From Fidelibacterota bacterium (GTDB lineage: Bacteria; Fidelibacterota; Marinisomatia; Marinisomatales; TCS55), in NCBI GenBank assembly GCA_002724735.1, contig PBPT01000016.1:9674-73673 (forward strand): 64,000 nt of DNA, written 5' to 3'. Made by a program: the position numbers and the translations under genes. The notes under the pieces were generated by a model. That model saw only the letters and a list, made by a program, of their open reading frames with translations. It did not search any database and was not told where the DNA came from. Below are positions 1 to 47,091 of the stretch, one piece after another (position 1 is the first letter of the stretch; each line of letters opens with the position of its first letter).

Positions 1-1
1 T

Positions 2-340
2 GCTGGTGCCTTAGCCGCAATTAAATATTTAAAAGATCATAATGAATTAAGAGAGCAACATCAATCTAAAGCAAAAAAATTAAAACAAATGTTAAAAGAT
101 GTTGACATAGAAGTTTTATCATGTGCTAGTACTCACATTGTACCTGTTATGATAAGAGATGCAAAACGTTGCAAAAAATATAGTGACGAGTTGCTACATG
201 AATATGGGATTTATATACAGCCCATTAACTATCCTACTGTGCCAGAAGGTACAGAAAGATTAAGGATCGCACCAACACCACTACACTCTGACGCTATGAT
301 GAGCGACTTAGTAGATGCATTGGTTAAGGTTATAAAATGA
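2..340 (+). CDS. hemA: 5-aminolevulinate synthase, C-terminal part (5' end outside window)
   Basis: Open from the first bases of the window. The visible C-terminal ~112 residues match the end of alpha-type ALA synthase: the stretch YGIYIQPINYPTVPEGTERL followed by RIAPTP and a closing DLVDALVKVI helix are family hallmarks. The enzyme is PLP-dependent and condenses glycine with succinyl-CoA to 5-aminolevulinate, the Shemin-pathway entry to heme. The PLP lysine and glycine-rich loop lie upstream and cannot be checked here. ALA synthase homologues are known in aquatic phage sequences; the same genome carries heme oxygenase and a bilin reductase near 40-42 kb, suggesting a role in tetrapyrrole supply. 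The downstream YbaN-like gene nearly abuts it. Confidence 0.88.
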   Translation, partial: AGALAAIKYLKDHNELREQHQSKAKKLKQMLKDVDIEVLSCASTHIVPVMIRDAKRCKKYSDELLHEYGIYIQPINYPTVPEGTERLRIAPTPLHSDAMMSDLVDALVKVIK

Positions 341-4261: not shown

Positions 4262-4288
4262 GATTTGAGGCAGGAATGTCTCATCCAT

Positions 4289-4330
4289 ATGATGGCCCAA
4301 CAGGGCATAACCATAGAGGAGAAAAAAATG
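4289..4330 (+). repeat. Leader repeat copy 2
   Basis: Second copy of the 42-nt leader found at 3668-3709, 40 of 42 bases identical, ending in the pstS ATG. The GCCC/GGGC hairpin and the GAGGAG ribosome site are conserved. Confidence 0.8.
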
Positions 4331-5329
4331 GTAAAATCATGGCTCGCCGCACTCGTGGCGGTATTTGCAGTTGCATCCGTAGCTGAAGCACGAGAAATTA
4401 GAATTGTAGGATCCTCTACAGTTTATCCTTTCACAACAATCGTAGGAGAAACATTTGCCGCAGAAGGTAACACAGCTCCTGTAGTTGAGTCAACTGGTAC
4501 AGGTGGTGGTATGAAACTGTTCTGTGCAGGTACAGGCGATTCACATCCTGACTTTACAAATGCAAGTAGAGCAATCAAAAGCAGTGAAGTTAAAATGTGT
4601 GATGAAAATGGTGTGACTCCACTAGAAATGTTGGTAGGATATGATGGCATTGTTTTTGCAAACAGCAAAGATAGTGCAGTACTAGAAGTTACTCCAAAAG
4701 AATTATTTCAAGCACTAGCTAAAGATGTTCCACAGGATAACGGTAACTTAGTACCAAACACATTTACACATTGGAATCAAATTAACAGCAGTTTTCCAGC
4801 AATTAAAATAGAAGTGTTAGGACCACCTCCTTCAAGTGGAACACGTGATGCATGGGTAGAGCTTGTAATGGAAAAAGGTTGTAAGACTTACGACTGGGTT
4901 AACGCAATGAAGAAGGTAGACAAAAAAGCATACAAAGGTATCTGTCACGGTATTCGAGAAGATGGTGCTTATGTAGAAGCAGGCGAAAATGATAATTTAA
5001 TTATTCAGAAGCTTACTAATAATCCAAATGCTTTCGGAATCTTCGGATATTCATTCTTAGATCAAAACACAGATGTAATTCAGGGATCTCCTATTGCAGG
5101 TGTAATTCCAACATTTGAATCAATTGCTGACGGTTCATATCCAGCAAGCCGTGGACTATATGTATATGCTAAAAAAGAGCATATGGGTGTTATCCCAGGT
5201 ATGACTGAGTTTATGGAACTTTATCTTAGTGATGACGTGGCGGGAGAAGATGGTTCATTAGGTGATGCAGGACTTATTCCATTACCACAAAAAGAACTTG
5301 ACAAAGTACGTGAAACCGTGTTAAACTAA
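4328..5329 (+). CDS. pstS: Phosphate ABC transporter substrate-binding protein
   Basis: Periplasmic phosphate-binding protein of about 333 residues. Signal peptide MVKSWLAALVAVFAVASVAEA, then the PstS opening IRIVGSSTVYPFTTIVGETF, ESTGTGGGMKLFC, FTNASRAIKSSE, and the later PPPSSGTRDAWVELV loop, all of which line the phosphate site in the family. It captures phosphate in the periplasm for PstC/PstA. The start at 4328 has GAGGAG in front; upstream in-frame codons belong to the leader repeat. PstS alone is common in marine phages; here it heads a full transporter. A strong hairpin separates it from pstC, as often seen where the binding protein is made in excess. Confidence 0.95.
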   Translation: MVKSWLAALVAVFAVASVAEAREIRIVGSSTVYPFTTIVGETFAAEGNTAPVVESTGTGGGMKLFCAGTGDSHPDFTNASRAIKSSEVKMCDENGVTPLEMLVGYDGIVFANSKDSAVLEVTPKELFQALAKDVPQDNGNLVPNTFTHWNQINSSFPAIKIEVLGPPPSSGTRDAWVELVMEKGCKTYDWVNAMKKVDKKAYKGICHGIREDGAYVEAGENDNLIIQKLTNNPNAFGIFGYSFLDQNTDVIQGSPIAGVIPTFESIADGSYPASRGLYVYAKKEHMGVIPGMTEFMELYLSDDVAGEDGSLGDAGLIPLPQKELDKVRETVLN

Positions 5330-5337
5330 CAGTAATA

Positions 5338-5366
5338 GTTAGGGGTGGGTAGCACTTGCCCCTAAC
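5338..5366 (+). terminator. Hairpin between pstS and pstC
   Basis: GTTAGGGG pairs with CCCCTAAC (8 bp, 13-nt loop). Likely a partial terminator or 3' stabiliser that raises pstS mRNA over pstCAB. Confidence 0.6.
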
Positions 5367-5386
5367 ATTCTTTCAAAAGGATTAAT

Positions 5387-6334
5387 ATGCTTATATGGAT
5401 AGGTCCAAAGAAAAAGTCCAACGGGATTAACGAAGATTATTTTAAATTCTTTTTTAGATTATCTAGTTGGATAACAATAGGTATAACATTTGCAATTATA
5501 GCAAGTTTATCGTACGAAACAATAAAATTCTTTACGCTTATAGATCCAAGAGAATTTTTCTTTAACACAACATGGTCCCCACAGACAGCTTTTAGGGCTG
5601 ACAGTGTAGGAAGCTCTGGTGAGTTTGGGCTTATACCTTTGTTATGGGGTACCTTTTTTATTACAACAATAGCAATGTGTATTGCTGGACCGTTAGGATT
5701 GCTTTGTGCTATTCTAACAGCAGAGTATTTAAAACCAAAAGTCAGAATAATAGTAAAACCTTTACTAGAAGTTCTAGCAGGTATACCTACAGTGGTGTAT
5801 GGTTTCTTTGCCGCGATTGTATTAGGACCTTGGCTTAGACAAACTGGGGTTACTTTAGGATTAGATGTCAGTACTGAATCTGCTCTTGCGGCAGGCCTAG
5901 TGATGGGTATAATGATTATACCTCTGATAAGTTCTATTACAGATGATGTACTTACCGCAGTACCTAGTGCAATGCGTGATGGTGCTAGAGGCGTAGGAGC
6001 AACAAGAGAAGAAACAATCCTATCAGTTGTATTACCTGCCGCACTTCCCGGAGTAGTTGCAGGATTTATAATGGCTATTAGTAGAGCAGTAGGCGAAACT
6101 ATGATTGTAGTCATGGCCGCAGGACTTGCCGCCAACCTTACGATTAATCCTCTAGAAGCAGTTACCACAGTAACAGTTCAAATTGTTACACTACTGATTG
6201 GCGACCAAGAGTTTGAAAGTGCAAAAACTCTAAGTGCTTTTGCATTAGCATTTACTCTTTTCACAGTTACATTTATTTTAAATTGGATAGCATACAGGAA
6301 TTATAAAAATGCAGTCAACAGACTTAGACAATAA
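5387..6334 (+). CDS. pstC: Phosphate ABC transporter permease PstC
   Basis: A 315-residue inner-membrane permease with six predicted helices. It contains the PstC pattern LLEVLAGIPTVVYGFFA and the coupling (EAA) loop AMRDGARGVGATREETILSV followed by [15 protein letters not shown] and AVGETMIV. It forms the channel with PstA. The periplasmic segment after the first helix (FFNTTWSPQTAF) is typical. AAAAGGATTAAT precedes the ATG; its end overlaps pstA by 26 nt. Confidence 0.93.
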   Translation: MLIWIGPKKKSNGINEDYFKFFFRLSSWITIGITFAIIASLSYETIKFFTLIDPREFFFNTTWSPQTAFRADSVGSSGEFGLIPLLWGTFFITTIAMCIAGPLGLLCAILTAEYLKPKVRIIVKPLLEVLAGIPTVVYGFFAAIVLGPWLRQTGVTLGLDVSTESALAAGLVMGIMIIPLISSITDDVLTAVPSAMRDGARGVGATREETILSVVLPAALPGVVAGFIMAISRAVGETMIVVMAAGLAANLTINPLEAVTTVTVQIVTLLIGDQEFESAKTLSAFALAFTLFTVTFILNWIAYRNYKNAVNRLRQ

Positions 6335-7490
6335 AATAACAGGACGCAGGCGAGTAGTACAAAAAAGTCTTGAGTATGCATGTTATAGTGCAGTGACATT
6401 GACTGCTATTTTAATGATTATATTTTTTGCTACTTTAGGTTACAGAGGAATAGGAGCATTTACTCAAACAAAAATTGAAGTTGATGTAGTAGAAGTACAA
6501 AGCACAAGTAAAAAAAGTATTAATGAAGCAATGTATAGACTAGTTAAGGAACCTGATCGAACGACTAAAAAAGGATTAAGGCAATTAGTTACACCAAATG
6601 CTTATAGCACAATAGATATTACAGAAGCAGGTACTTATGTTCTTGTAGCACATACTAACGTAGACATGTACGTTAAAGGAGTATACGACAAATTAACAGA
6701 TTCGCAAAGAGAAATAGTAGACATATTAATTTCTGACGGCAAAATATATCGCACATGGAATTGGAGCTTCTGGACAAACTCAGACAGTCGATCTCCTGAG
6801 ATAGCAGGCATCTGGGGAGCAATGGTAGGTACATTCTACACAATAGGACTTGCATTGATATTTGCATTTCCTATAGGAGTAGGTTGTGCCACCTACATGG
6901 AGGAATTTCCAAAGAAACGTAATTCTTGGGCTTATGATTTTATGGAGATCAACATTAATAATCTTGCCGCAGTACCTAGCATAGTTTATGGTTTACTAGG
7001 ACTTGCGGTGTTTATACAATTTTTTGGTATGCCTCGAAGTGCGAGCCTAGTTGGAGGATTAACTTTAGGTATTCTCACATTGCCTACAATAGTAATCGCA
7101 TGTCGAACAGCATTAAGAACTGTGCCACAAAGTGTTAGAGATGCTAGTAATGGACTTGGTGCTAGTAGACTACAAACGACAATGTATCAAGTACTGCCTG
7201 CGGCACTGCCTGGGATTATCACAGGAACTATTATTGGAATTGCAAGAGCAATAGGAGAGTCAGCGCCTCTACTAATGATTGGTATGGTTGCATTTATTCT
7301 TACTGCTCCAACTAGTATATTGGATCCTGCTACAAGTTTGCCTGTGCAAATTTATCTATGGGCAGACAGTCCAGAAAGGGGATTTGCTGAAAAGACTAGT
7401 GCGGCTATCTTAATATTGTTATTAATATTAGTAACATTAAACTTATTAGCTATTTGGCTAAGGAAGAGGTTTGAAATAAAATGGAAATAG
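6309..7490 (+). CDS. pstA: Phosphate ABC transporter permease PstA
   Basis: A 393-residue permease, longer than E. coli PstA because of a soluble insert of roughly 100 residues between the first helix and the permease core, a form seen in alphaproteobacteria. Core motifs are [17 protein letters not shown], the coupling loop [35 protein letters not shown] and [13 protein letters not shown]. It pairs with PstC. The start lies inside the pstC coding end and its stop overlaps pstB, so the three are translationally coupled. Confidence 0.93.
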
Positions 7491-8278
7491 AAACTAGAAA
7501 TACACTTACGCTCACAAAGAGCCAAAAAATAGAAGTTCGTAATCTTAATATTTGGTATGGAGATGCACATGCTATTAAAGATGCAAGCTTAAAAATTAGA
7601 AAGAACAATGTGACCGCACTAATTGGTCCGAGTGGTTGTGGTAAAAGCACATTCTTACGTGCCTTAAACCGAATGAATGATTTTATTGATGACTGTGTTA
7701 CAAAAGGTTCTGTTGGCATAGATGGGACTGACATCTATAGAACACAATATACAAATGTAAACAATTTGCGTAAGAGTGTTGGGATGGTTTTTCAAAAGCC
7801 CAACCCATTTCCGAAATCAATTTATGAAAATGTCGCATACGGCCCGCAATTACATAGGATGCATGAATCAAAGGCACATCTTGATGAAATAGTTAAAAAC
7901 AGTTTACAGAAAGCTAACCTGTGGGATGAAGTAAAAAATAGGCTTACATCAGAAGCATTTAGTTTAAGTGGAGGTCAACAACAGCGATTGTGTATTGCTA
8001 GAACCCTAGCAGTTGATCCACAAGTTGTATTACTTGATGAGCCATGCAGTGCTTTGGATCCTATTAGCACTAATGCTATTGAACAACTAATACTTGAACT
8101 TAAAAAGTCTTACACTATTGTTATGGTTACTCATAACATGCAACAAGCCAAACGTATAAGTGATACTACTGCTTATTTTCATCTCGGTGAAATAGTAGAA
8201 GTAGGAGCCACTAAAAAGATATTTGGAAATCCTAATCACAGATCAACGAGGGCTTATGTAAGTGGAGAATTTGGTTAA
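7481..8278 (+). CDS. pstB: Phosphate ABC transporter ATP-binding protein PstB
   Basis: A 265-residue ABC ATPase. Walker [11 protein letters not shown]-loop [17 protein letters not shown], signature [16 protein letters not shown], Walker B VVLLDEP, and H-loop [10 protein letters not shown] are all present, with the PstB-specific Q-loop wording. It powers phosphate import through PstCA. All catalytic residues appear intact, so the phage seems to encode a functional transporter. No phoU follows. Confidence 0.95.
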
Positions 8279-8283
8279 AGCTC

Positions 8284-8312
8284 TTGACAATATTAGTATT
8301 AGATAGTATACT
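8284..8312 (+). promoter_or_regulatory. Sigma-70 promoter
   Basis: TTGACA, 17-bp spacer, TATACT, just after pstB and 26 bp before the UDP-glucose dehydrogenase gene. Confidence 0.85.
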
Positions 8313-8337
8313 ATAAGAAACAATTACGGATCTACCT

Positions 8338-9126
8338 ATGAAAATAGCAATAGCTGGATATGGTTATGTTGGTAAGGCTGTTGAAGCTTATCTACAACAT
8401 ACTGGTGCTACGACTAAAATAGTTGATCCTGAATACTATAGAATACTAGGTAAAGATCTTACATGTGGACTTAAGGTATCAGATACAAATGCCGATGGTG
8501 TTATCATTTGTGTTAATACTCCGCAGGCAGAAAATGGTGAGTGTGATATATCAAATGTTATTGATGTTTTAGGTGATACACATGCTGAGAAACCAGTACT
8601 AATAAAAAGCACTATTAGCTTAGAAGGTTGGAAACAAATCAAGGAAATATTTCCAAGCCATACAATATCTTTTTCACCTGAGTTTATAAGAGCAGATACA
8701 GCTATAGAAGATATGTTGAATACCAAAACTATATACATTGGTGGAGGACATTATTACTTTTGGGAAAGGGTATTTCAGCGAACCACTAAATTATCAAAAA
8801 TTATACATGCTAAGCCAGAAGAACTAATATTAGCTAAATATTTTCGTAACAGCTTTCTAGCTACTAAGGTTGCTTTCTTTAATCAAATTTATGATTTATG
8901 TGAAGCAACCAACATAGACTTTTCTAAAGTCTCAACACTAATAACGGAGGACAGCCGTATAGGACAAAGCCACACTGAAGTAACAACTGAACGGGGCTTT
9001 GGAGGCCACTGTTTCCCTAAAGACACCCAAGCAATTATAAAGACAGCACACAGGGAAGGTGTAGACCTTTCGTTATTACGAGAGGCTATACGTTATAACA
9101 ATAACATTAGGAAGGGTACCACTTGA
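8338..9126 (+). CDS. UDP-glucose/GDP-mannose dehydrogenase-like protein (short form)
   Basis: A 262-residue protein with the NAD-binding start [19 protein letters not shown], the family segments [13 protein letters not shown] and FSPEFIRAD, a central helix [20 protein letters not shown], and the catalytic cysteine C225 in [11 protein letters not shown]. It would oxidise a nucleotide sugar to its uronic acid. The usual C-terminal UDP-binding domain is missing (the family is about 400-430 residues), so substrate binding must differ or activity may be reduced. Similar short forms occur in T4-like marine phages. Own sigma-70 promoter; the stop overlaps the prs region. Confidence 0.82.
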
Positions 9127-9128
9127 AA

Positions 9129-10061
9129 ATGAAAATCATAACTGGAAATTCAAACCCAGAGTTAGCGGAAAAGATAGCAAAACACTGCTTCGCGACACTG
9201 GTTCCTGCCAACGTGAGTGCGTTTGCAGACGGGGAAACAAGCGTAGAGTTTTTAGAAAATATTAGAGGTGAAGATGTTTTTATTGTAAACTCAACATCAA
9301 CACCAGTAAACGATAGTTTAATGGAATTACTTATAATGATTGATTCTGCTAGACGTAGTTCAGCAAAAAGGATTACCGCAGTTATTCCTTACTTCGGTTA
9401 TGCTAGACAAGATAGAAAAAGTGCAAGTCGTACACCTATCACTGCTAAACTAGTAGCAAACTTGCTTACCACAGCAGGAGCAGATAGAATACTTACTATG
9501 GACTTACATGCTGGTCAAATTCAAGGTTTCTTTGATATACCTGTGGACGATTTAACCAGCAGGAAAGTTTTTGCAGAAGACATACAGGCTAGGGTGAATG
9601 TTGACGAAGGCACAGTATTTGTATCTCCAGATGCAGGCGGTGCCGTTCGTGCTAGAAAGTTTGCTGACATGTTTCATGCAGACATTGCTATCGTTGACAA
9701 ACGTAGGCCGGAGGCTGGTGTTGCAGAAGTAATGGCTCTTATCGGAGATGTCAAAGACAAACATGCAATCTTAGTAGATGATATTGTAGACAGTGGCGGA
9801 ACATTATGTAATGCCGCAAAAGCAATAATGGATGCTGGAGCATTAAGTGTAAGGGCATATATTACTCACGGAGTGCTTAGTGGAGAAGCTACTAAGAAGA
9901 TTGAAAAGAGTGTGCTAGAAGAATGTGTAGTTACAGACAGTATCAACACTAGAGATATTAGTAAAATGAAACGTGTCAGAGAAGTAACAACAGGTTCTTT
10001 ATTTGGTGAAGCTATTCGTAGGGTAACAAATGAAGAAAGCGTAAGTTCTTTGTTTATCTAA
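9129..10061 (+). CDS. prs: Ribose-phosphate pyrophosphokinase (PRPP synthase)
   Basis: A 310-residue enzyme, full family length. Recognisable parts are the start [71 protein letters not shown], and the PRPP loop [12 protein letters not shown]. It makes PRPP from ribose-5-phosphate and ATP, feeding purine, pyrimidine and NAD synthesis. ATG at 9129 is chosen; an in-frame TTG at 9123 overlaps the previous stop and has GGAAGGG upstream. Together with NrdAB and GuaC it suggests nucleotide supply for replication. Confidence 0.93.
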
Positions 10062-37766: not shown

Positions 37767-38891
37767 ATGCGTATTGAAGAAGATGTGAAATTGGATTTCA
37801 AAGATGTTCTTTTCAAACCAAAGCGAAGTAAGTTAGAAAGTCGCCGAGACGTTGATTTGACAAGGACATTTAAGTTTCATAACAGTGGAAATGAATGGAC
37901 TGGCGTTCCTATTATGGCAAGTAATATGGACGGAGTAGGTACGTTCGAAATGGCTAAAATCTTACAAGAACATAAGATGATTACAGTCATGCGAAAACAT
38001 TATACCATTGATGATTGGAAAGAACAAAGTCAAGGCGTCAAAATGAAATACCTTAGTGTATGCACAGGCACAGGTGTTATATGGGATTCTAATGCACAAG
38101 ATTATGCTACAATGAAAGCAGTGCTAGAAATGTATCCAGACATCAAATTTATTACTGTTGATGTAGCTAATGCATATCACGAAAACTATGCAGAATTCAT
38201 TGCTAGATTAAGAGATGCTTATCCAGATAAAACTATTGTAGCAGGAAATGTAATTTCTGCAGAAATGGTCGAAGAACTTATTATCAGAGGAGCAGATATT
38301 GTAAAGTGTGGTATTGGACCAGGTAGTGTTTGCACTACACGTTTGATGACTGGTGTAGGTGTACCACAACTTTCAGGAATTATTGAATGTGCTGATGCGG
38401 CTAATGGTATAGGCGGACATATGATTGCAGACGGAGGTTGTGTATATCCAGGTGATGTAAGTAAAGCATTTGGAGCAGGCGCACACTTTGTTATGCTTGG
38501 AGGTATGCTAGCTGGACATAAAGAAGGTGGCGGCAATATTATAACAAAGCACACTGCAACTGGAGGCGCATTTAAAGCAGAAAGCGGAACTTATGTACCA
38601 CACTTTGCTGAACAAAACTTTGTTGAGTTTTATGGTATGAGTTCAGATGCGGCTATGGCTACACATGGAACCCGTAAAGATGGATATAGAGGAGCAGAAG
38701 GTAAAGTTGTTTCTATTCCATACAAAGGCAATGTGCAAGACACATTAACTGAAATTTTAGGCGGTGTACGATCTACTTGTACATATATAGGTGCTAAAAG
38801 GCTAAAAGACATGTCAAAATGCACTACATTTGTACGTTGTACACAACAAGTAAACCAGATATTTACTCCCTTTGACGTACAAAAGGGATAA
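37767..38891 (+). CDS. guaC: GMP reductase
   Basis: A 374-residue enzyme close to the E. coli GuaC pattern from the start (MRIEEDVKLDFKDVLFKPKR) through VPIMASNMDGVGTF, DVANAYHENY, and the catalytic loop KCGIGPGSVCTTRLMTGVG (C189), to FYGMSSDAAM, AEGKVVSIPYKG and GGVRSTCTYIGA. It converts GMP to IMP and ammonia with NADPH. It has an insert near residues 255-285. In a phage it could rebalance purines salvaged from host RNA and DNA. One base after bS21. Confidence 0.93.
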   Translation: MRIEEDVKLDFKDVLFKPKRSKLESRRDVDLTRTFKFHNSGNEWTGVPIMASNMDGVGTFEMAKILQEHKMITVMRKHYTIDDWKEQSQGVKMKYLSVCTGTGVIWDSNAQDYATMKAVLEMYPDIKFITVDVANAYHENYAEFIARLRDAYPDKTIVAGNVISAEMVEELIIRGADIVKCGIGPGSVCTTRLMTGVGVPQLSGIIECADAANGIGGHMIADGGCVYPGDVSKAFGAGAHFVMLGGMLAGHKEGGGNIITKHTATGGAFKAESGTYVPHFAEQNFVEFYGMSSDAAMATHGTRKDGYRGAEGKVVSIPYKGNVQDTLTEILGGVRSTCTYIGAKRLKDMSKCTTFVRCTQQVNQIFTPFDVQKG

Positions 38892-38978: not shown

Positions 38979-39437
38979 ATGACAAGACTAACAACCCTAG
39001 ATATCAACCCCCATTTTCAAAGAGCAACTATTGGATTTGATCGAATCTTTGATCAACTCGAAAGACAGTTTGCTAATAGTCCAAACGGACAGGGGTATCC
39101 ACCATATAACATTGCACAGTTGAACGAAGATGAGTTTATGATCTCTCTTGCAGTTGCTGGCTTTGGTATGGATAATTTAGATATCACCAAAGACGGTGAA
39201 ACCTTAAGAATTGAAGGGACTGCACCGGGTGGTGACGATCAAATAAATTATTTACACAAAGGAATTGGTGGACGTAATTTCCGTAGGGAATTTACACTTG
39301 CTGAACATGTTGAAGTTGTAAATGCTCAACTTGAACTTGGTATGCTTAATGTACACCTAAAGCGTAACTTACCGGAAGAATTACAGCCTAAAAAAATTAA
39401 AATTAATGAAGGCGTAACAATCGACCAAAGCAAGTAA
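38979..39437 (+). CDS. Small heat-shock protein (Hsp20/IbpA type)
   Basis: A 152-residue alpha-crystallin-domain protein. N-terminus FQRATIGFDRIFDQLERQFA, core YPPYNIAQLNEDEFMISLAV, FGMDNLDITKDGETLRIEG, YLHKGIGGRNFRREFTLAEH, and the final LNVHLKRNLPEE. It holds unfolded proteins. Hsp20 is common in T4-like cyanophages. A hairpin separates it from clpS. Confidence 0.93.
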   Translation: MTRLTTLDINPHFQRATIGFDRIFDQLERQFANSPNGQGYPPYNIAQLNEDEFMISLAVAGFGMDNLDITKDGETLRIEGTAPGGDDQINYLHKGIGGRNFRREFTLAEHVEVVNAQLELGMLNVHLKRNLPEELQPKKIKINEGVTIDQSK

Positions 39438-39486: not shown

Positions 39487-39798
39487 ATGACTACAGTGAC
39501 AGATATAGATGTTAAAATAGATGAAAAGATCAAAGATCTTATTCAAGAACCTAGCCGTTATAATGTCATCTTTCTAAACGATGATGCCACACCCATGGAA
39601 TGGGTAATTGACTTATTAGTAAGAGTATTCAAACATACTCAGACTTCCGCACAAAATCTAACATTGGAGATACATACTAATGGTAGTGCAGTTGTCGGCA
39701 CTTACAGCTATGAAATTGCCGAACAGAAAGCTATAGAATCTACTACAGCAAGTAGAGAAAACGGCTTTCCACTACAGATTAAAGTGGAAGTGGAATAA
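39487..39798 (+). CDS. clpS: ClpS-like Clp protease adaptor
   Basis: A 103-residue protein with the ClpS core: RYNVIFLNDDATPMEWVIDL, LVRVFKHT, LEIHTNGSAVVGTYSYEIAEQK. The N-degron pocket residues (NDD..P) are visible. ClpS binds ClpA, delivers N-end-rule substrates and suppresses degradation of tmRNA-tagged substrates by ClpAP. AGGAGG precedes the ATG; one base before heme oxygenase it ends, so they are co-translated. Confidence 0.88.
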   Translation: MTTVTDIDVKIDEKIKDLIQEPSRYNVIFLNDDATPMEWVIDLLVRVFKHTQTSAQNLTLEIHTNGSAVVGTYSYEIAEQKAIESTTASRENGFPLQIKVEVE

Positions 39799-40353
39799 AT
39801 GTCGAACTTAAAAGAGTTAACTTGGGAACATCACAAGAACGCTGAGCGACAAGAATTTGTTAAAGAACTAATGTCCGGAGACATATCAAAAAAAAGATAT
39901 GCAACTCTTTTATTTAATTTACATCCATGCTATAATATTTTAGAAACATTTGCACGATTATATGATCTTTTAGATGTTAGACTCGCACCATCTATACATG
40001 CAGACTATCATGAATTATGGAACGAAACTGAGGAGTACCAACCACCATTACTGCCAGTAGTAAGAGAATATATGGATCACATAGTATCAATACAAGAAGA
40101 TCCAGACAAATTAATGGCACATCTATATGTTAGACATATGGGTGATCTTAGTGGAGGACAAATGATAGCAAAGAAAGTACCAGGATCTGGAACCATGTAT
40201 AAGTTTAACGAAGATGTAAAAGTGCTGAAAGAAAAAATACGTGCTAGGCTAGATGACAGTATGGCTGAAGAAGCAAAAATAGCATTTACTTTCGCTACTA
40301 AACTATTTAAACAAATGATGGAAATTGAAAATGGTAGCAAACAAAAACACTGA
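39799..40353 (+). CDS. ho1: Heme oxygenase
   Basis: A 184-residue enzyme. The proximal histidine lies in TWEHHKNAERQEF (H12), and the distal helix reads HLYVRHMGDLSGGQMIAKKV, the family signature with the flexible GDLSGG. It opens heme to biliverdin, CO and iron. Phage heme oxygenases are known from cyanophages and alphaproteobacterial phages and pair with a bilin reductase, here two genes downstream. Its end overlaps the nitrilase-like gene by 23 nt. Confidence 0.93.
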   Translation: MSNLKELTWEHHKNAERQEFVKELMSGDISKKRYATLLFNLHPCYNILETFARLYDLLDVRLAPSIHADYHELWNETEEYQPPLLPVVREYMDHIVSIQEDPDKLMAHLYVRHMGDLSGGQMIAKKVPGSGTMYKFNEDVKVLKEKIRARLDDSMAEEAKIAFTFATKLFKQMMEIENGSKQKH

Positions 40354-41380
40354 CCCAGTCCAACAAAATCGACCAAAATCAATAAAACGCCAAAGTGTAA
40401 GATTCGGCGGTGCTCAAATTCCTGTCACACATGATTTAAAAAAGAATGTTGTAGAAATTAAAGAAGCAATTGATTGGGCCGCAGAAAATAAAGTAGATTA
40501 TCTAGTCACACCAGAAGGATCACTTAGCGGTTACTACGATAAATTTATGGACCAACCACATCAACTAGAGGAACTTCGTGCAGGAGAATGGGAAGTAACT
40601 CAGTATGCAGGAAGCAAACAACTAGGTTTATGCTTAGGAACATTGTTTTTAGATTACGAACCATCTGGTCAATTAAAAAGAGATCAGATAAGATTTTACA
40701 ATAAGTCTGGGCAAATAGAAGATGTGTATAACAAAATCCAACTTATACTCAATGATGTAGTGGTTCCAGGAGAATTTAAAGAATATAACACAACCCATCC
40801 AGATAAAGAATGGCAAGGGCACCCTATAATAAATTTACCTGCTGGTCCGACGACAAAGGTGCAAGTCAGTGCATTGATATGTAATGACATGTATGGAGAA
40901 AATCCAAAAGGAGAAGGCATTGCAAGAAGAGCTTTGTATATGTTAAGCACTTGTCCTAATCCGATAGAATTAATAATCCATCCTACTTATGGACTTAGAG
41001 GCACCGAGGTAATAGAAAATTTTCAATATGATGGTACTCGTGATGGTAAAGAAGTACCAGCAGAATTTGCAGATCATATACGCAAGACAATGGAAGATTG
41101 GCATGAAAGTACTTTAGTAATGTTGTCTTATCAATTAAATCAAACATTTTTTATAGTAGATGCATGTTCTGATTTTTCTGGACAAATGTCAGACTTTAAC
41201 ACAAGTAGTCCTAGTGGAGTAGTTAGTAAAGGAGAATGGTTAGTCAAAGCCCCTAGGAAGGGCAAACAATATTTTTATCATGATTTCGAACTGCCTACAA
41301 TAATAGATTACAGTATGACTACCAATAGAGATATTGTAGGATTACTAGAAAAGAATAATCCAAAACCGATTGAGGAATAG
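40331..41380 (+). CDS. Nitrilase-superfamily carbon-nitrogen hydrolase
   Basis: About 349 residues. The Glu-Lys-Cys catalytic triad is in place: E62 (LVTPEGSLSGYY), K135 (DVYNKIQLIL) and C184 (VSALICNDMYGENP). The family hydrolyses nitriles, amides or carbamoyl groups, or transfers acyl groups. It lies inside the heme oxygenase-bilin reductase operon: overlapping the first, two bases from the second. I know of no reported link between such an enzyme and phage bilin synthesis. ATG at 40331 is chosen; TTG at 40325 would add two residues. Confidence 0.85.
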   Translation: MVANKNTDPVQQNRPKSIKRQSVRFGGAQIPVTHDLKKNVVEIKEAIDWAAENKVDYLVTPEGSLSGYYDKFMDQPHQLEELRAGEWEVTQYAGSKQLGLCLGTLFLDYEPSGQLKRDQIRFYNKSGQIEDVYNKIQLILNDVVVPGEFKEYNTTHPDKEWQGHPIINLPAGPTTKVQVSALICNDMYGENPKGEGIARRALYMLSTCPNPIELIIHPTYGLRGTEVIENFQYDGTRDGKEVPAEFADHIRKTMEDWHESTLVMLSYQLNQTFFIVDACSDFSGQMSDFNTSSPSGVVSKGEWLVKAPRKGKQYFYHDFELPTIIDYSMTTNRDIVGLLEKNNPKPIEE

Positions 41381-41382
41381 CT

Positions 41383-42096
41383 ATGTTTACTTTTGAACCA
41401 CCACCAGAGTCAGAAATATGGGACAAATTAATATTGTGCCAAAACGACATTATTGAAATGTTTGATCACTATGCTGAAGAATTTGAAGAACCAGGATTAG
41501 ATTATTTTAATAAACCAGATGGCAGTTGGATTAATAGAGTTTGGAAGAATAAACATATACGTAGAGCTCATATTGATGTAGTAGATGCTAGAGCGACAAA
41601 AGGACTATGGATGATGCATGTATGTTGTTTTCCTGATTTAAATAATGATGGTCCTATATATGGTTTTGATGTAATAGCTGGTAAAAATAAAATCACAGGA
41701 GCATTTCACGATTTTTCTCCTAGTGCCACTTTAGAACATGAACTAATTGATGAATATTATAGATCAGTAGAAAACTTTGTGCCTAAAAAACAAAGAGAAT
41801 TACCTGAATGGGCAAAAAATATTTTTACTGATAAAATGTTGGCCGCAAGCAATGTGAAAGCAGATGAAGCAGATGATATAATCGCTATAGCAATTCGTAA
41901 TCTAGCTATGTATTTCATGACTATTGGTGAGTCTGCAGGACAAGGTAATGTAGATGAAGTAAAAGGCGCTCAAAACTACTATTGTGAAAACCAACAAATG
42001 AATCCACATACACCTAATGTAATGAAAAGTTTAGGCCTGCCTGAAGCCGATGTAGAAAAATTCTGCACAGATATGCTGTTTCCAAAAATCGTATAA
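41383..42096 (+). CDS. pcyX: Ferredoxin-dependent bilin reductase, PcyX-like
   Basis: A 237-residue FDBR-family protein. Diagnostic stretches are RAHIDVVDARATKGLWMMHV, CCFPDLNNDGPIYGFDVIAG with the central Asp (D96), and GKNKITGAFHDFSP; a second acidic cluster (DEADD, about 161-165) is where the other active-site acid is expected, and NQQMNPHTPNVMKSLGL is the C-terminal binding loop. These enzymes reduce biliverdin with ferredoxin electrons. Phage members (PebS, PcyX) make phycoerythrobilin; PcyX comes from phages of alphaproteobacteria, so it is the closest fit in context. The exact subclass needs a tree. Confidence 0.85.
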   Translation: MFTFEPPPESEIWDKLILCQNDIIEMFDHYAEEFEEPGLDYFNKPDGSWINRVWKNKHIRRAHIDVVDARATKGLWMMHVCCFPDLNNDGPIYGFDVIAGKNKITGAFHDFSPSATLEHELIDEYYRSVENFVPKKQRELPEWAKNIFTDKMLAASNVKADEADDIIAIAIRNLAMYFMTIGESAGQGNVDEVKGAQNYYCENQQMNPHTPNVMKSLGLPEADVEKFCTDMLFPKIV

Positions 42097-42103: not shown

Positions 42104-43270
42104 ATGCGTTACTCAGATTTCAAACAACCTTTATTTGAAGGGTATACAATAGGAGATATTGCGGAAACACTATGGGGAGCCGCAGTAACAGCCGCTTTTG
42201 AAAACTATCCTGCTCCTGCACAGCCTGCAGATGTAAACAGGATAATGGCCAGTCTTAAAAATCTAAGTTATACAAAAACAAGAGCAGACGGACTTAAAAG
42301 TGAAATGACTGATGAAGTAAGCTTTGTTAATCAAATCGCAATGAAAGATCACGTAGCAGATATAAAAGCATGGCCGAACTCAGTATTTCCTACTAAAAGA
42401 ATTGATATAGTAACAGGTAATGTTATTAAAGATGCTAATTTACAAGTTAAAACAGCAGGGCTAGATCTAAAGCAAATCTTTGCAAATGGTAAAGCAGACA
42501 AAATTGTTATTGGAGCTCAAGGCGGAGCAGACCAAAAAGGCACTAAAGTTGATGTAGCAATTACGCATAGTGTTCAAGGTGCTACAGAAACAATTCATTT
42601 AGGATATAGTCTTAAAACAAACGATAAAGATGCAAAGCTTATGCCAGTAGGACAAAATCCTGGAGTCAAATCAGCAAGGGGTTCTGGTAGAAGTGTAGTT
42701 GAATTTTTTACTGATCTTGGCATCAAAGATATTAAAGAACCATTATATGATGCGGCCGCAGAATTGAATAAGCAGATTAAAGACCAATTTGCATTAGGTA
42801 GAACTGACCAAGCAAAGATACTTCGAAAAGGCGGAGAAGTAAATCAAGACATGAACGATAACATGGCTAAAGCAGTTCAACAAATAAACGATAGAGTTAA
42901 CAACGATGCAGAAGAAAGGAAGTTTTTCGAAGACTTAATTAATTTCCTTAATGTGCATATTAACAAAGGTGAAAAAGGTTTAAAACTTTTAACAATTGGT
43001 AAAGAAGAAGTATATACAAGTACTCTTGAAAAATTTGCCGAAATGGCTCCTCAACTAAAAATATCTGCAAAACATTTCCCACAAGGACAAAAGTTTTTCA
43101 TTTATGCAGAAAATGATGAAACTGGTGAACAAGATGCAATTCTTGAAGTAAGATTAAAAACTACCGGCGGAGTACCTAGTAGTAAAAATGCCGCAATCTA
43201 TAGAAATTTAAGATATACACTTACAGTTTCAACTGGACCTGGTTACAACAAGTACGCCAAGATTTCCTAA
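42104..43270 (+). CDS. Conserved phage protein, possibly nuclease-like
   Basis: A 388-residue protein starting MRYSDFKQPLFEGYTIGDIA. A central segment KVDVAITH...IHLGYSLKTNDK has the D-(x)n-xxK spacing seen in restriction-nuclease folds, but the match is weak. Homologues appear in T4-like marine phages without function. The start resembles that of the ligase-like protein at 11933 (MRYHEFKYL). Confidence 0.5.
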   Translation: MRYSDFKQPLFEGYTIGDIAETLWGAAVTAAFENYPAPAQPADVNRIMASLKNLSYTKTRADGLKSEMTDEVSFVNQIAMKDHVADIKAWPNSVFPTKRIDIVTGNVIKDANLQVKTAGLDLKQIFANGKADKIVIGAQGGADQKGTKVDVAITHSVQGATETIHLGYSLKTNDKDAKLMPVGQNPGVKSARGSGRSVVEFFTDLGIKDIKEPLYDAAAELNKQIKDQFALGRTDQAKILRKGGEVNQDMNDNMAKAVQQINDRVNNDAEERKFFEDLINFLNVHINKGEKGLKLLTIGKEEVYTSTLEKFAEMAPQLKISAKHFPQGQKFFIYAENDETGEQDAILEVRLKTTGGVPSSKNAAIYRNLRYTLTVSTGPGYNKYAKIS

Positions 43271-43436: not shown

Positions 43437-44594
43437 ATGAATAAGTTTAAATTGAGGGTAGCGATCGTTGTGTTCGCATTAGGTTTCCTTGCTTTCGAAA
43501 GTGTCGCACAAGTTGAGAATGATGCTGATGGATTATATGATAGCACAAGCCTAGTTGATACAAATACTAACACCACATCTAACAGTACGGTGAACAGTAC
43601 CAATACAAATAATAACAATACTACTATTAATAGTACTAATGCAAATACCAACACTAATACAAACACCAATACCAACACGAATACTAGTACCAGTACGAGT
43701 ACTAATACCAACAATAACACTAACACAAATACAAATAATAGTACAATTAATAGTACCAATGTAAACACAAACAACAATGTTTTGAGCGGAGGCACAAACA
43801 ATACTAATGTGAATACAAATACTAATAATACTACTATCAATAGCACAACGAACAGTACAAGTACAAATACTAATAACAATAATAATGTTAATACAAGTAC
43901 TTCTAACAATACAAATACAAATAACAGTACAATTAACAGTACTTCTAATAATACGAATACTAATACTAACACTAACAACAGTACTGTAAATCAAACAGTT
44001 AATCAAACTACAAACAGCACAGTAGATCAAACTGTTAACAGTACAAGCAATAATACAAACACTAATAATAATACGAACACAAATACTAACACCAATACGA
44101 ATACTAATAATACACAAGTTAATAGTACAAGTACCAATACCAATAACAACAACAATGTGAGCAGAATTGAGCAAAAAATTGAGAGCCCTCCGCCAACTGC
44201 TATTGCTCCAACTGTTAATGCAGGAGGAATTGATACTTGTACAACTAGTGTCAGCGGAGCAGTACAAACACAGATATTAGGTATATCAGGTGGTACACAC
44301 ATACGAGACCTAAACTGTGAACGATTAAAGAATTCGAAAACCCTTTACAATATGGGTATGAAAGTGGCGGCAGTCGCTCTGATGTGTCAAGATCCAGGAG
44401 TCTTTGAAGCTATGAAGATGGCCGGAACTCCATGTCCATTTAATGGTAAAATAGGCGTAGAAGCACAGGCAGAATGGGACGCAAATCCTAAGATGCAACC
44501 TGTGGCTAAAGAAGTGGAGACAAGACGCAATGATAAAATCGACGGAGCTCTTATGGGCATCGGCGGTGTTGGCCTGCTACTACTTCTTCTCTAG
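43437..44594 (+). CDS. Secreted Asn/Thr-rich low-complexity protein
   Basis: A 385-residue protein. Signal peptide MNKFKLRVAIVVFALGFLAF..VAQ, then about 200 residues made almost only of Asn, Thr, Ser and Val (runs such as NTNTNTNT, NNTTINST), then a folded Cys-containing domain (CTTSVSGAVQTQILG, GTHIRDLNCERLKNSKTLYN, VAALMCQDPGVFEAM) and a C-terminal hydrophobic helix (GALMGIGGVGLLLLLL). The N/T region could form a beta-solenoid or an extended, possibly glycosylated stalk. Its last 65 nt overlap the signal peptide of the next gene. Function unknown; probably envelope or virion surface. Confidence 0.7.
   Translation: MNKFKLRVAIVVFALGFLAFESVAQVENDADGLYDSTSLVDTNTNTTSNSTVNSTNTNNNNTTINSTNANTNTNTNTNTNTNTSTSTSTNTNNNTNTNTNNSTINSTNVNTNNNVLSGGTNNTNVNTNTNNTTINSTTNSTSTNTNNNNNVNTSTSNNTNTNNSTINSTSNNTNTNTNTNNSTVNQTVNQTTNSTVDQTVNSTSNNTNTNNNTNTNTNTNTNTNNTQVNSTSTNTNNNNNVSRIEQKIESPPPTAIAPTVNAGGIDTCTTSVSGAVQTQILGISGGTHIRDLNCERLKNSKTLYNMGMKVAAVALMCQDPGVFEAMKMAGTPCPFNGKIGVEAQAEWDANPKMQPVAKEVETRRNDKIDGALMGIGGVGLLLLLL
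43554..44159 (+). repeat. Low-complexity AAY/ACN codon tract
   Basis: About 600 bp dominated by Asn and Thr codons (AAT/AAC, ACA/ACT) in frame, giving an irregular short-period repeat with no fixed unit. Prone to expansion and contraction. Confidence 0.85.
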
Positions 44595-47091
44595 TACAGC
44601 ATACGCACAAACGGTAAACCCTAATAACTGTCCTAACACGTACACAGGTTCATCAACAGCCTATGACAGCTATAATGCAACAGACTATTCTAATACAGTT
44701 ATATGTAATAGTATACAATTAAAAAATCTAGTTGATAGTACTATACTTAATTTTGAATTACCAACTGATGGACAAGGCTTACCTCAAAGTTTGTATGATC
44801 CTAGCACAGACACGCTTTCTTTTTCACAACAGGCAGGACTATTAGTAACAGCTAAAGCTTCTTTTGCTATCAATGCCGCATTACAAGCCGCAGGTATTGG
44901 TTTAGAATTTAGAGGATTTAAATATGAATGGGAAGTATACAAGCCAACAGCTAGCAGTGAATTAAAAATTACTGTGAGGATTAAATCAAATGGCTCCGGT
45001 GGATTAGTAGGTAATGGGTTAATTTATCAAGCAACACACAATTATACAGGAACAGCGTTTACATCTTGGACCTTACGTGACGATACAGGATTTGGTAAGC
45101 CACCGTTTGCATTTGTAATACAAGATGAATGGACTGTAGAGGGTGAGGTAAAAAATGATGATCCACAGAATAAGATACGTAATATGAAATATACATTTTC
45201 TTATGCACCTAAAATAGGTCATGAAGATGACTTCGATCCTAATTATGTATATCCCGGACAGCAACAAGACACAACTACAACTAAAACAGACTTCGAAGAA
45301 CAATGTGAAATAGATCCCCAGTTTAGTCCAGGTTGTGCAGATTACGTAGATCCTAACATAGATGATGGCATAAATGACGGTGGTAATTCACATACAGGAT
45401 TAGGACATAATGATGATTTACAAGAAGAACTAGCTAACGCAGGTATTGATAATTTAATTAGCGATACTGCACTACAAACTGGTACTAATGCAGATGGTTC
45501 ACTTAGCTCGGCTATAATAGATACCGGTGCAGACATACAAGATGGTACAGGTGGGCATCACGATGGGCATCACGATGGTAGTTTACCAGAAATGCCTGAA
45601 GATACTATTGCTGTCATTATGATTGTTGATAATACCGGAGAACCTTTACAAGAAGATCAGCTATTAGAATTAGATGAAATACTTAATGAAACACTAATGG
45701 ATTTACCTGGAGGTCCAGATTTAAATATGGATGTCGTGCAAGATGCTCTAAATGATGCTTTGGATGAAATAGGCGGAACTATAGAAGTAATAGAGTTACC
45801 CGAAGCCGAAATACAAGCTATTGATGAACAATTACAAGAACTATCAGGAGGTCCGCCAATTACTGGTAATCCCCAAGGACCTGGAAATGGACAAAATATC
45901 GAACCTAATATGGGCGGGCCAAATTTAGATGCATTGCCTATAGAAGGTGACATAAGCACCGAAATATCAGAAAGTGGAGAAGTTGCATTAGAAGTAGACG
46001 GCACTCTAAGTAACTTGCCTGAAGAACCAGGAGGGCCTGATCGAGAAGAAATAATTGATGTAGAGCCAGTTGAGTCAGTAGTTGAAAGTGCAGTAGAAGA
46101 AGTTGCTGTAGTATCTGAAACTGGTACAATATCAGAAACTGCCCCTGTAGCCAAACCAACTTTAAGTGTTATACAAAAGAAAGCACTTAGTATAGCATCA
46201 GCAACAACAGTTGCCGCTATAGAAGTAGCAGGGCAACAAGCATACGCAAGCACTACAAGCGGTATAGCACAGTCACAAAGTGGATCTAGTTTAGACGCTC
46301 AAGGAAGTAACAGTGGAAGCACAGGCAGTAATTTAGATGGATCTCCATCTAGCGGCAGTGATAGCGGAATGAGCTTTGGTAGTACAGGCAGTTCAAGCGG
46401 AATGGACACAGGTTCATCGACTACAGCAAACAACAACACAGGTAATTTTAACATAGAGCAAAATAATAACACAGGCCCACAAACAGTTCTAGGACAAGGT
46501 ACATCCTCTACAGGAGATGTAGAAATTTCATCTATTATAGCAGATTCAAGTATTAGTTCGCTTAATCAAAGTGGACCCAGCGGTGTATTTGAATCAGAAG
46601 AAAATTTAACTGGGCAGATTGATACTGGAGAAGGACTTGCCAAAGGAGGAGCAATCACATACGAAGAAACCAATGAGACTATGTTTGGCACTATTGTTAT
46701 TCCACAGTTAGACTTTACAGTACGTGAAATGATTGATGCCGTAATTAGACAAACACTTGTTGACGCAGGAGCAGAACCAGAATTTTTAACACTAGACGAA
46801 GTATCTGAACAAGAACTTAAAGAACAACAAGCCTTAGAAGACAGGCTTGTACAAGAAGCTATAGCAGGAAGCACAAGCGAAGATGCTAATGCGGCTTTGT
46901 TGGGATATAACCCAACATTTAGAGACTATGTAACCCCTCAAGTATATGGTGCTGGGACACAAGCATTTTATGCACCAGAAGAAATATATACGGGTAACAG
47001 AAATTATGATAACCCTAATCAACGTTTCTTCAATGGAGCAAGTGATGCACTACATAGAAAAATGATTAGATTACAATATGGAGAAAACTAA
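44530..47091 (+). CDS. Large secreted acidic protein
   Basis: An 853-residue protein. Signal peptide LLWASAVLACYYFFSSTAYA, then a beta-rich N-terminal domain to about residue 260 (Cys pairs at CPNTY and VICNS), an acidic Gly/Asp-rich middle with His-rich GHHDGHHDG, Pro/Gly stretches, a Ser/Gly low-complexity region near 590-700, and a C-terminal helix-rich part. It begins inside the Asn/Thr-rich gene. Likely a partner of that protein, exported or part of the virion; no family recognised. Confidence 0.6.
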   Translation: MIKSTELLWASAVLACYYFFSSTAYAQTVNPNNCPNTYTGSSTAYDSYNATDYSNTVICNSIQLKNLVDSTILNFELPTDGQGLPQSLYDPSTDTLSFSQQAGLLVTAKASFAINAALQAAGIGLEFRGFKYEWEVYKPTASSELKITVRIKSNGSGGLVGNGLIYQATHNYTGTAFTSWTLRDDTGFGKPPFAFVIQDEWTVEGEVKNDDPQNKIRNMKYTFSYAPKIGHEDDFDPNYVYPGQQQDTTTTKTDFEEQCEIDPQFSPGCADYVDPNIDDGINDGGNSHTGLGHNDDLQEELANAGIDNLISDTALQTGTNADGSLSSAIIDTGADIQDGTGGHHDGHHDGSLPEMPEDTIAVIMIVDNTGEPLQEDQLLELDEILNETLMDLPGGPDLNMDVVQDALNDALDEIGGTIEVIELPEAEIQAIDEQLQELSGGPPITGNPQGPGNGQNIEPNMGGPNLDALPIEGDISTEISESGEVALEVDGTLSNLPEEPGGPDREEIIDVEPVESVVESAVEEVAVVSETGTISETAPVAKPTLSVIQKKALSIASATTVAAIEVAGQQAYASTTSGIAQSQSGSSLDAQGSNSGSTGSNLDGSPSSGSDSGMSFGSTGSSSGMDTGSSTTANNNTGNFNIEQNNNTGPQTVLGQGTSSTGDVEISSIIADSSISSLNQSGPSGVFESEENLTGQIDTGEGLAKGGAITYEETNETMFGTIVIPQLDFTVREMIDAVIRQTLVDAGAEPEFLTLDEVSEQELKEQQALEDRLVQEAIAGSTSEDANAALLGYNPTFRDYVTPQVYGAGTQAFYAPEEIYTGNRNYDNPNQRFFNGASDALHRKMIRLQYGEN

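Follow-up and report, generated by a model that had tools for sequence, protein, structure and literature searches.

Heme oxygenase (HO) and the bilin reductase PcyX make up a marine phage cassette, hemO-pcyX (Ledermann et al. 2016, cited in PMC11480375), and the co-occurrence of HO and a bilin reductase in marine phages outside the cyanophages has been termed enigmatic (PMC11480375). In the 64,000-nt stretch of DNA analyzed here (the window), a gene for a nitrilase-superfamily carbon-nitrogen (C-N) hydrolase lies between the two. Is this hydrolase part of the bilin pathway, an accessory to it, or an unrelated passenger? No description of the arrangement was found in the literature searched, which left out most subscription journals and all preprints. 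The relevant features, in window coordinates, are:

1..337, plus strand: 3' end of a phage 5-aminolevulinate synthase (AlaS) gene (TIGR01821, 1.8e-40 for the fragment in the window)
37767..38891, plus strand: GMP reductase / IMP dehydrogenase-like enzyme (PF00478, 2.9e-66)
38979..39437, plus strand: Hsp20 small heat-shock protein (PF00011, 2.7e-13)
39487..39798, plus strand: ClpS (PF02617, 3.6e-27)
39799..40353, plus strand: heme oxygenase, 184 aa (PF01126, E 6.5e-22)
40331..40353, plus strand: 23 nt shared by the HO 3' end and the start of the hydrolase (from the sequence and ORF ends)
40331..41380, plus strand: nitrilase-superfamily C-N hydrolase, 349 aa (PF00795, 2e-11; phrog_36475, 2e-47)
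41383..42096, plus strand: PcyX-type ferredoxin-dependent bilin reductase, 237 aa (PF05996, 1.1e-18)
42104..43270, plus strand: gene directly 3' of PcyX, without a Pfam match

HO, hydrolase and PcyX run head to tail, all three on the plus strand. The hydrolase ATG is at 40331 and the HO stop codon at 40351-40353; at the other end, 2 nt separate the hydrolase stop (41380) from the PcyX ATG (41383). The three ORFs, the overlap and the two-base gap reported in an earlier note on this DNA are thus borne out by the sequence. The 1,029 nt from the HO stop to the PcyX start are occupied by the hydrolase, and hemO and pcyX, immediate neighbors in syntenic sister phages, are not so here. Could the middle gene be an artifact? 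A pseudogene is ruled out by full-length ORFs and intact triads, and a chimera or misassembly by the identical gene order in unrelated contigs and in phages from other metagenomes.

On the 5' side, ClpS adjoins HO in nearly all sister arrays, and the GMP reductase-like protein matches, at 52%, the annotated GMP reductase of a 290-kb record. On the 3' side, the position of the gene following PcyX is taken in sister phages by a variable 'MRF/MRY..' protein. Beyond it, a 385-aa ORF made up mostly of Asn/Thr repeats (43437-44594, no Pfam match) and an 853-aa secreted-looking protein (44530-47091, no PHROG match) stand where sister phages have CsgG and curlin genes. In one sister (L012) the region 3' of PcyX encodes CsgG (PF03783, 4.5e-50; 8876-9784) and a curlin-repeat protein (PF07012; 9859-10533), and such genes may constitute a phage-encoded curli-like system. 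Elsewhere in the window (4265-10061), clustered phage genes encode a phosphate-binding protein (PBP_like_2), an ABC transporter ATPase, a UDP-glucose dehydrogenase-like protein and a ribose-phosphate pyrophosphokinase.

The window belongs to a 335,231-bp contig (C57) in a metagenome-assembled bin; a 93-kb portion of the contig sequence is present in IMG/VR. On account of its T4-type major capsid gene (Gp23, E 4e-97), we take C57 to be a jumbo T4-like phage binned together with a bacterium. Gp23 matches with identical scores occur twice in the bin (G000:C77:86051-86995 and C57:237745-238689), an indication that this MAG contains two assemblies of the phage or of a near twin. The full AlaS gene is at C57:8835-10010 (TIGR01821, 557.5 bits), about 40 kb upstream of HO, and the hydrolase is the sole C-N hydrolase found on the contig. 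A search for phytochrome domains returned none in 25 cassette-bearing records and none in the window's own bin.

Are the flanking genes what they appear to be? HO has the proximal-histidine motif TWEHHKNAE (H12) as well as GDLSGGQ. Its best solved relatives are HO-2 and HO-1 (E 5e-14), H12 aligns with the HO-2 proximal histidine, and the protein has both the PF01126 domain and the proximal histidine. The best solved relative of the reductase is 5owg (PcyX_EBK42635, E 4e-78), PcyA being far weaker (3e-15), and H63, D65, H79 and D96 are invariant among its cassette relatives. D65 occupies the position of the PcyA catalytic Glu and is invariant in an alignment of 12 cassette reductases; on our reading of that alignment it corresponds to Asp55, the PcyX-specific catalytic residue (PMC11480375). 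Judged by sequence, the reductase is truly PcyX-like, and the identities that the earlier note gave to both flanking genes hold. From their families and catalytic residues, HO and PcyX would form the known core that converts heme to biliverdin and then, by a four-electron reduction, to phycoerythrobilin (PEB). Two HO-like proteins beside PcyX in other phages, L008:5418-5987 (TSASQANAE) and L113:2629-3255 (TAKYYDEAG), lack the proximal histidine and so are probably no longer heme oxygenases.

The E-K-C amidohydrolases of the nitrilase superfamily cut an amide or carbamoyl C-N bond via a cysteine acyl-enzyme. The window hydrolase scores 44.1 bits against PF00795 (cut-off 23.2), and its E62/K135/C184 triad is invariant in an alignment of relatives (64/64), which confirms the intact C-N hydrolase previously reported. 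Between the Lys and the Cys the superfamily has a second conserved Glu, for which the window protein has D142; across the 64 sequences this column has D in 37, E in 13 and other residues in 14. The window hydrolase has an N-terminal extension of about 22 residues, which is missing in those relatives inspected that also lie between HO and PcyX. The AlphaFold2 model has the nitrilase fold (mean pLDDT 83), and its best Foldseek matches in the PDB are N-carbamoyl amidohydrolases (D-carbamoylase, E 4e-16, probability 1.0). The family profile likewise finds these enzymes as the nearest solved structures; phmmer with the single sequence found nothing in the PDB, the matches coming from the profile. 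The window hydrolase has no match to the N-carbamoylputrescine amidase equivalog TIGR03381 (AguB), which 17 of the 64 relatives match weakly.

How often does a hydrolase occupy this junction? IMG/VR was scanned with HO, PcyX and the hydrolase family as queries; for the last a family alignment was needed, the single hydrolase sequence having retrieved only the window's own contig. Many phages share a conserved array (TM protein, 132-aa protein, 83-aa protein, GMP reductase-like enzyme, Hsp20, ClpS, HO, PcyX). From the PcyX-based scan the best 80 of at least 583 PcyX loci were typed, a selection blind to the hydrolase, and these gave 62 clusters (95% nt) with HO upstream. The HO|PcyX junction was empty in 54 of the 62 cassettes (87%). 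Five junctions, the window's included, held a hydrolase, five held a halogenase (three of these with a hydrolase too) and one held a small ORF. The ClpS|HO junction was interrupted in 3 of the 62. A first sample of 53 clusters had 30 empty junctions, the remainder holding a small ORF (8), a hydrolase (4), a halogenase (4), a 2OG oxygenase and a hydrolase (3), a halogenase and a hydrolase (2), a hydrolase, a second HO and a 2OG oxygenase (1) or a 2OG oxygenase (1); of its ten cases with a hydrolase, six had been retrieved by the hydrolase scan, and leaving those out gives 4/47. At least 11 distinct phages (L309 counted) have a hydrolase between HO and PcyX, six of the 11 having been first found through the hydrolase itself. 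The orders seen are HO-NIT-PcyX, HO-2OG-NIT-PcyX, HO-halogenase-NIT-PcyX and HO-NIT-HO2-2OG-PcyX, where NIT is the hydrolase. A strictly conserved three-gene operon is ruled out by the many sisters that lack the hydrolase, and a unique one-off insertion by the 11 phages that have it in this slot.

The halogenase of the slot is a PF04820 (Trp halogenase) protein, with E about 1e-90, and the oxygenase a PF13640 (2OG-Fe(II) oxygenase) protein, the L138 copy being slightly below the cut-off. Junction enzymes of the Trp-halogenase FAD type, relatives of VirX1, are at L044:5539-7032, L057:5530-7026, L059:5530-7050, L129:4436-6004, L134:2418-3992, L309:1712-3226 and L339:2313-3881. Among these seven, PF04820 was confirmed in L044, L129 and L134, and in three phages a nitrilase lies alongside. 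One phage clade has a small ORF of 60-78 aa in the junction (L074:1055-1291, L075:3476-3658, L067:5618-5827, L342:3793-4002); the one tested had no Pfam match.

Is the position a matter of chance? In 41 cassette records picked via HO or PcyX, with the window's own excluded, the family profile found seven hydrolases. The HO|PcyX slot holds three of them; the same phages have three second copies about 9 kb farther downstream, and the remaining match, a weak one, is elsewhere. If genes are taken to be spaced roughly 850 bp apart, random placement would put 0.09 hydrolases in the slot, against the 3 observed (P about 1e-4, or 0.004 with two related phages counted as one event). In a tree of the hydrolases, the slot members form three lineages within a larger phage clade, to which members from outside the slot belong as well; a single origin is disfavored though not rejected (AU p = 0.064), and the window protein is on a long branch. 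To account for hydrolase presence, five changes are needed on the PcyX tree and six on the HO tree, and close sister phages differ in it. Given the enrichment, the three slot lineages and these five to six changes, the hydrolase gene comes and goes, yet it returns to the same junction. Slot hydrolases are under purifying selection, since dN/dS is about 0.09-0.44 in the pairs where dS is unsaturated. They evolve faster than the neighboring HO and PcyX; between the window and the other slot lineages, hydrolase identity is about 36-44% and HO identity 57-72%.

The earlier note had argued from tight coupling to a shared pathway, and proposed a search of phages for the three-gene order. The order does recur and its link to the cassette is non-random, so this part of the argument stands; a regular step between heme and PEB is not supported, with most cassettes lacking the hydrolase and close sisters differing. 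That note had also said that its idea would suffer if HO and PcyX stayed adjacent without the hydrolase, if the hydrolase turned up in unrelated positions, and if bilin products were unaffected; on the genomic side, HO-PcyX pairs without it and family members elsewhere are both what we find.

What does the family do outside the slot? It has at least 245 loci in IMG/VR. The Sf-FS3 member belongs to a glycan cluster that includes fucosyltransferases and, three genes upstream of the hydrolase, a NadE-like gene. Members in L102, L109, L111 and L121 are near a carbamoyltransferase, assigned by Pfam (PF02543/PF16861) in L109 and by sequence resemblance in the other three; the clusters at L102:3376-6858 (where the genes overlap) and L109:5992-10551 are consistent with carbamoyl chemistry for the family. 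In P-SSM2-like cyanophages the members form tandem arrays, and bacterial and archaeal relatives are scattered and about 30% identical. Because its members also occur in glycan clusters, carbamoyltransferase clusters and tandem arrays, the family counts as a general amidohydrolase of phages, with one branch that is drawn to the bilin cassette.

The best overall explanation, to which we give a probability of about 0.5, is that the three genes are a coupled unit with a modular slot, and that the hydrolase in this slot is an accessory that can be absent or exchanged. The empty slots and the repeated changes on both trees point to an optional gene, whose product is probably an active accessory of the bilin cassette and not a fixed pathway step. 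In this 335-kb T4-like jumbo phage, HO, hydrolase and PcyX would be carried on one transcript as one translationally coupled unit. C184 is predicted to attack an amide or carbamoyl carbon with the assistance of E62 and K135; an acyl-enzyme would form, and water would then free the acid and ammonia. Co-translation would supply the hydrolase at the time and dose of the bilin enzymes, and it would therefore support the same phase of infection. Its substrate is more likely a small amide or carbamoyl metabolite than a tetrapyrrole, because heme and the known bilins have carboxylates and lactams but no open amide or nitrile, and because most cassettes lack the gene; no result in this analysis favors a bilin or tetrapyrrole amide over another small amide. 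Against the coupled-accessory explanation, marine T4-like phages commonly carry halogenases, 2OG oxygenases and nitrilases as accessory genes, and the slot may simply tolerate insertions; moreover, the hydrolase diverges faster than its neighbors, as a replaceable passenger would, and has D142 in place of the canonical second Glu.

These last points lead to the alternatives. If the junction is merely permissive, the hydrolase could have an unrelated task, for instance the recovery of nitrogen from amides or ureido compounds of the host. Its patchiness among close sisters and its abundance elsewhere fit such a passenger, as do the extra genes at other junctions of the array, such as DnaK and a 2OG oxygenase that precedes the GMP reductase-like gene. 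We nevertheless think this unlikely, for in the arrays searched HO|PcyX is the only junction that nitrilases and halogenases entered, three hydrolase lineages are found there, and gene combinations repeat. Alternatively, might the hydrolase, like the slot halogenase and 2OG oxygenase, act directly on biliverdin, PEB or another tetrapyrrole to give variant bilins? All three are small-molecule enzymes, and PcyX is present in every case where a nitrilase was found next to HO. Furthermore, halogenase and nitrilase share the slot in 3 of 5 cases each among the 62 cassettes (Fisher p 0.0025, partly due to one clade). The bond chemistry of bilins and the many cassettes without a hydrolase speak against it, however, as do the family members that lie among glycan or carbamoyltransferase genes, far from any bilin gene, and we rate direct tailoring as rather improbable. 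Its broader form, in which alternative tailoring enzymes (hydrolase, flavin halogenase, 2OG oxygenase) plug into the HO|PcyX junction and different phages make differently modified bilins, such as halogenated or C-N-processed ones, strikes us as doubtful.

Two further ideas come from the superfamily itself. The commonest weak match of the family is the NCBIfam NAD+ synthase PRK13981 (54/64 members), and the Sf-FS3 member has its NadE-like gene nearby; by analogy with the nitrilase domain of glutamine-dependent NAD synthetase, the hydrolase might be a glutaminase subunit that frees ammonia for a separate synthetase. This is very improbable, the match being 18 bits against a curated cut-off of 479 and NAD_synthase (PF02540) having no match on C57. 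Nor is the gene product a glutamine-dependent NAD+ synthetase in its own right, as it is a 349-aa single-domain protein with no synthetase domain. N-terminal amidases are one branch of the nitrilase superfamily, and with ClpS two genes upstream the hydrolase might work in N-degron proteolysis. We give this the least credence, for ClpS and HO adjoin in the same way with or without the hydrolase, and its best matches are the N-carbamoyl amidohydrolases.

The HO-PcyX cassette was already known; the exchangeable enzyme slot inside it is the wider finding, and more interesting than the single gene. This recurrent slot in a bilin operon names partner enzymes to co-express with HO and PcyX, and these provide a concrete handle on the identity of the product, be it unmodified PEB or another compound.

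How does the locus compare with known systems? It resembles that of Pelagibacter phage Mosig EXVC030M, the window proteins being 46% identical to Mosig HO and 54% to Mosig PcyX; in Mosig and most relatives nothing lies between the two genes, whereas here the hydrolase does. In the 'broken' form of the valaS-hemO-pcyA/X cassette (PMC11480375), AlaS is on the same genome away from hemO and pcyX. Since AlaS is likewise encoded on C57 at a distance from both, the window phage carries a 'broken' AlaS-HO-PcyX cassette in that sense. The third gene of the published cassette is AlaS, however, not a hydrolase between HO and PcyX, and the main text of PMC11480375 mentions no nitrilase, hydrolase or halogenase. 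With the N-carbamoyl amidohydrolases (D-carbamoylase 6lei, plant N-carbamoylputrescine amidohydrolase 5h8i) the window hydrolase shares the fold and the E-K-C triad, but it is only about 15-17% identical to them and, as noted, falls outside TIGR03381. It is closer to the phage CN hydrolases of phrog_36475 (P-SSM2, P-SSM5, Sf-FS3), at about 32-36% identity and with the signatures PEGSLSGY and CND; unlike the window hydrolase, these lie away from HO-PcyX, either close to ssb as tandem copies or within glycan clusters. The marine viral flavin halogenase VirX1 (6qgm) is a different enzyme, with relatives that fill the HO|PcyX slot of other phages; no halogenase match was found in the window's genome bin.
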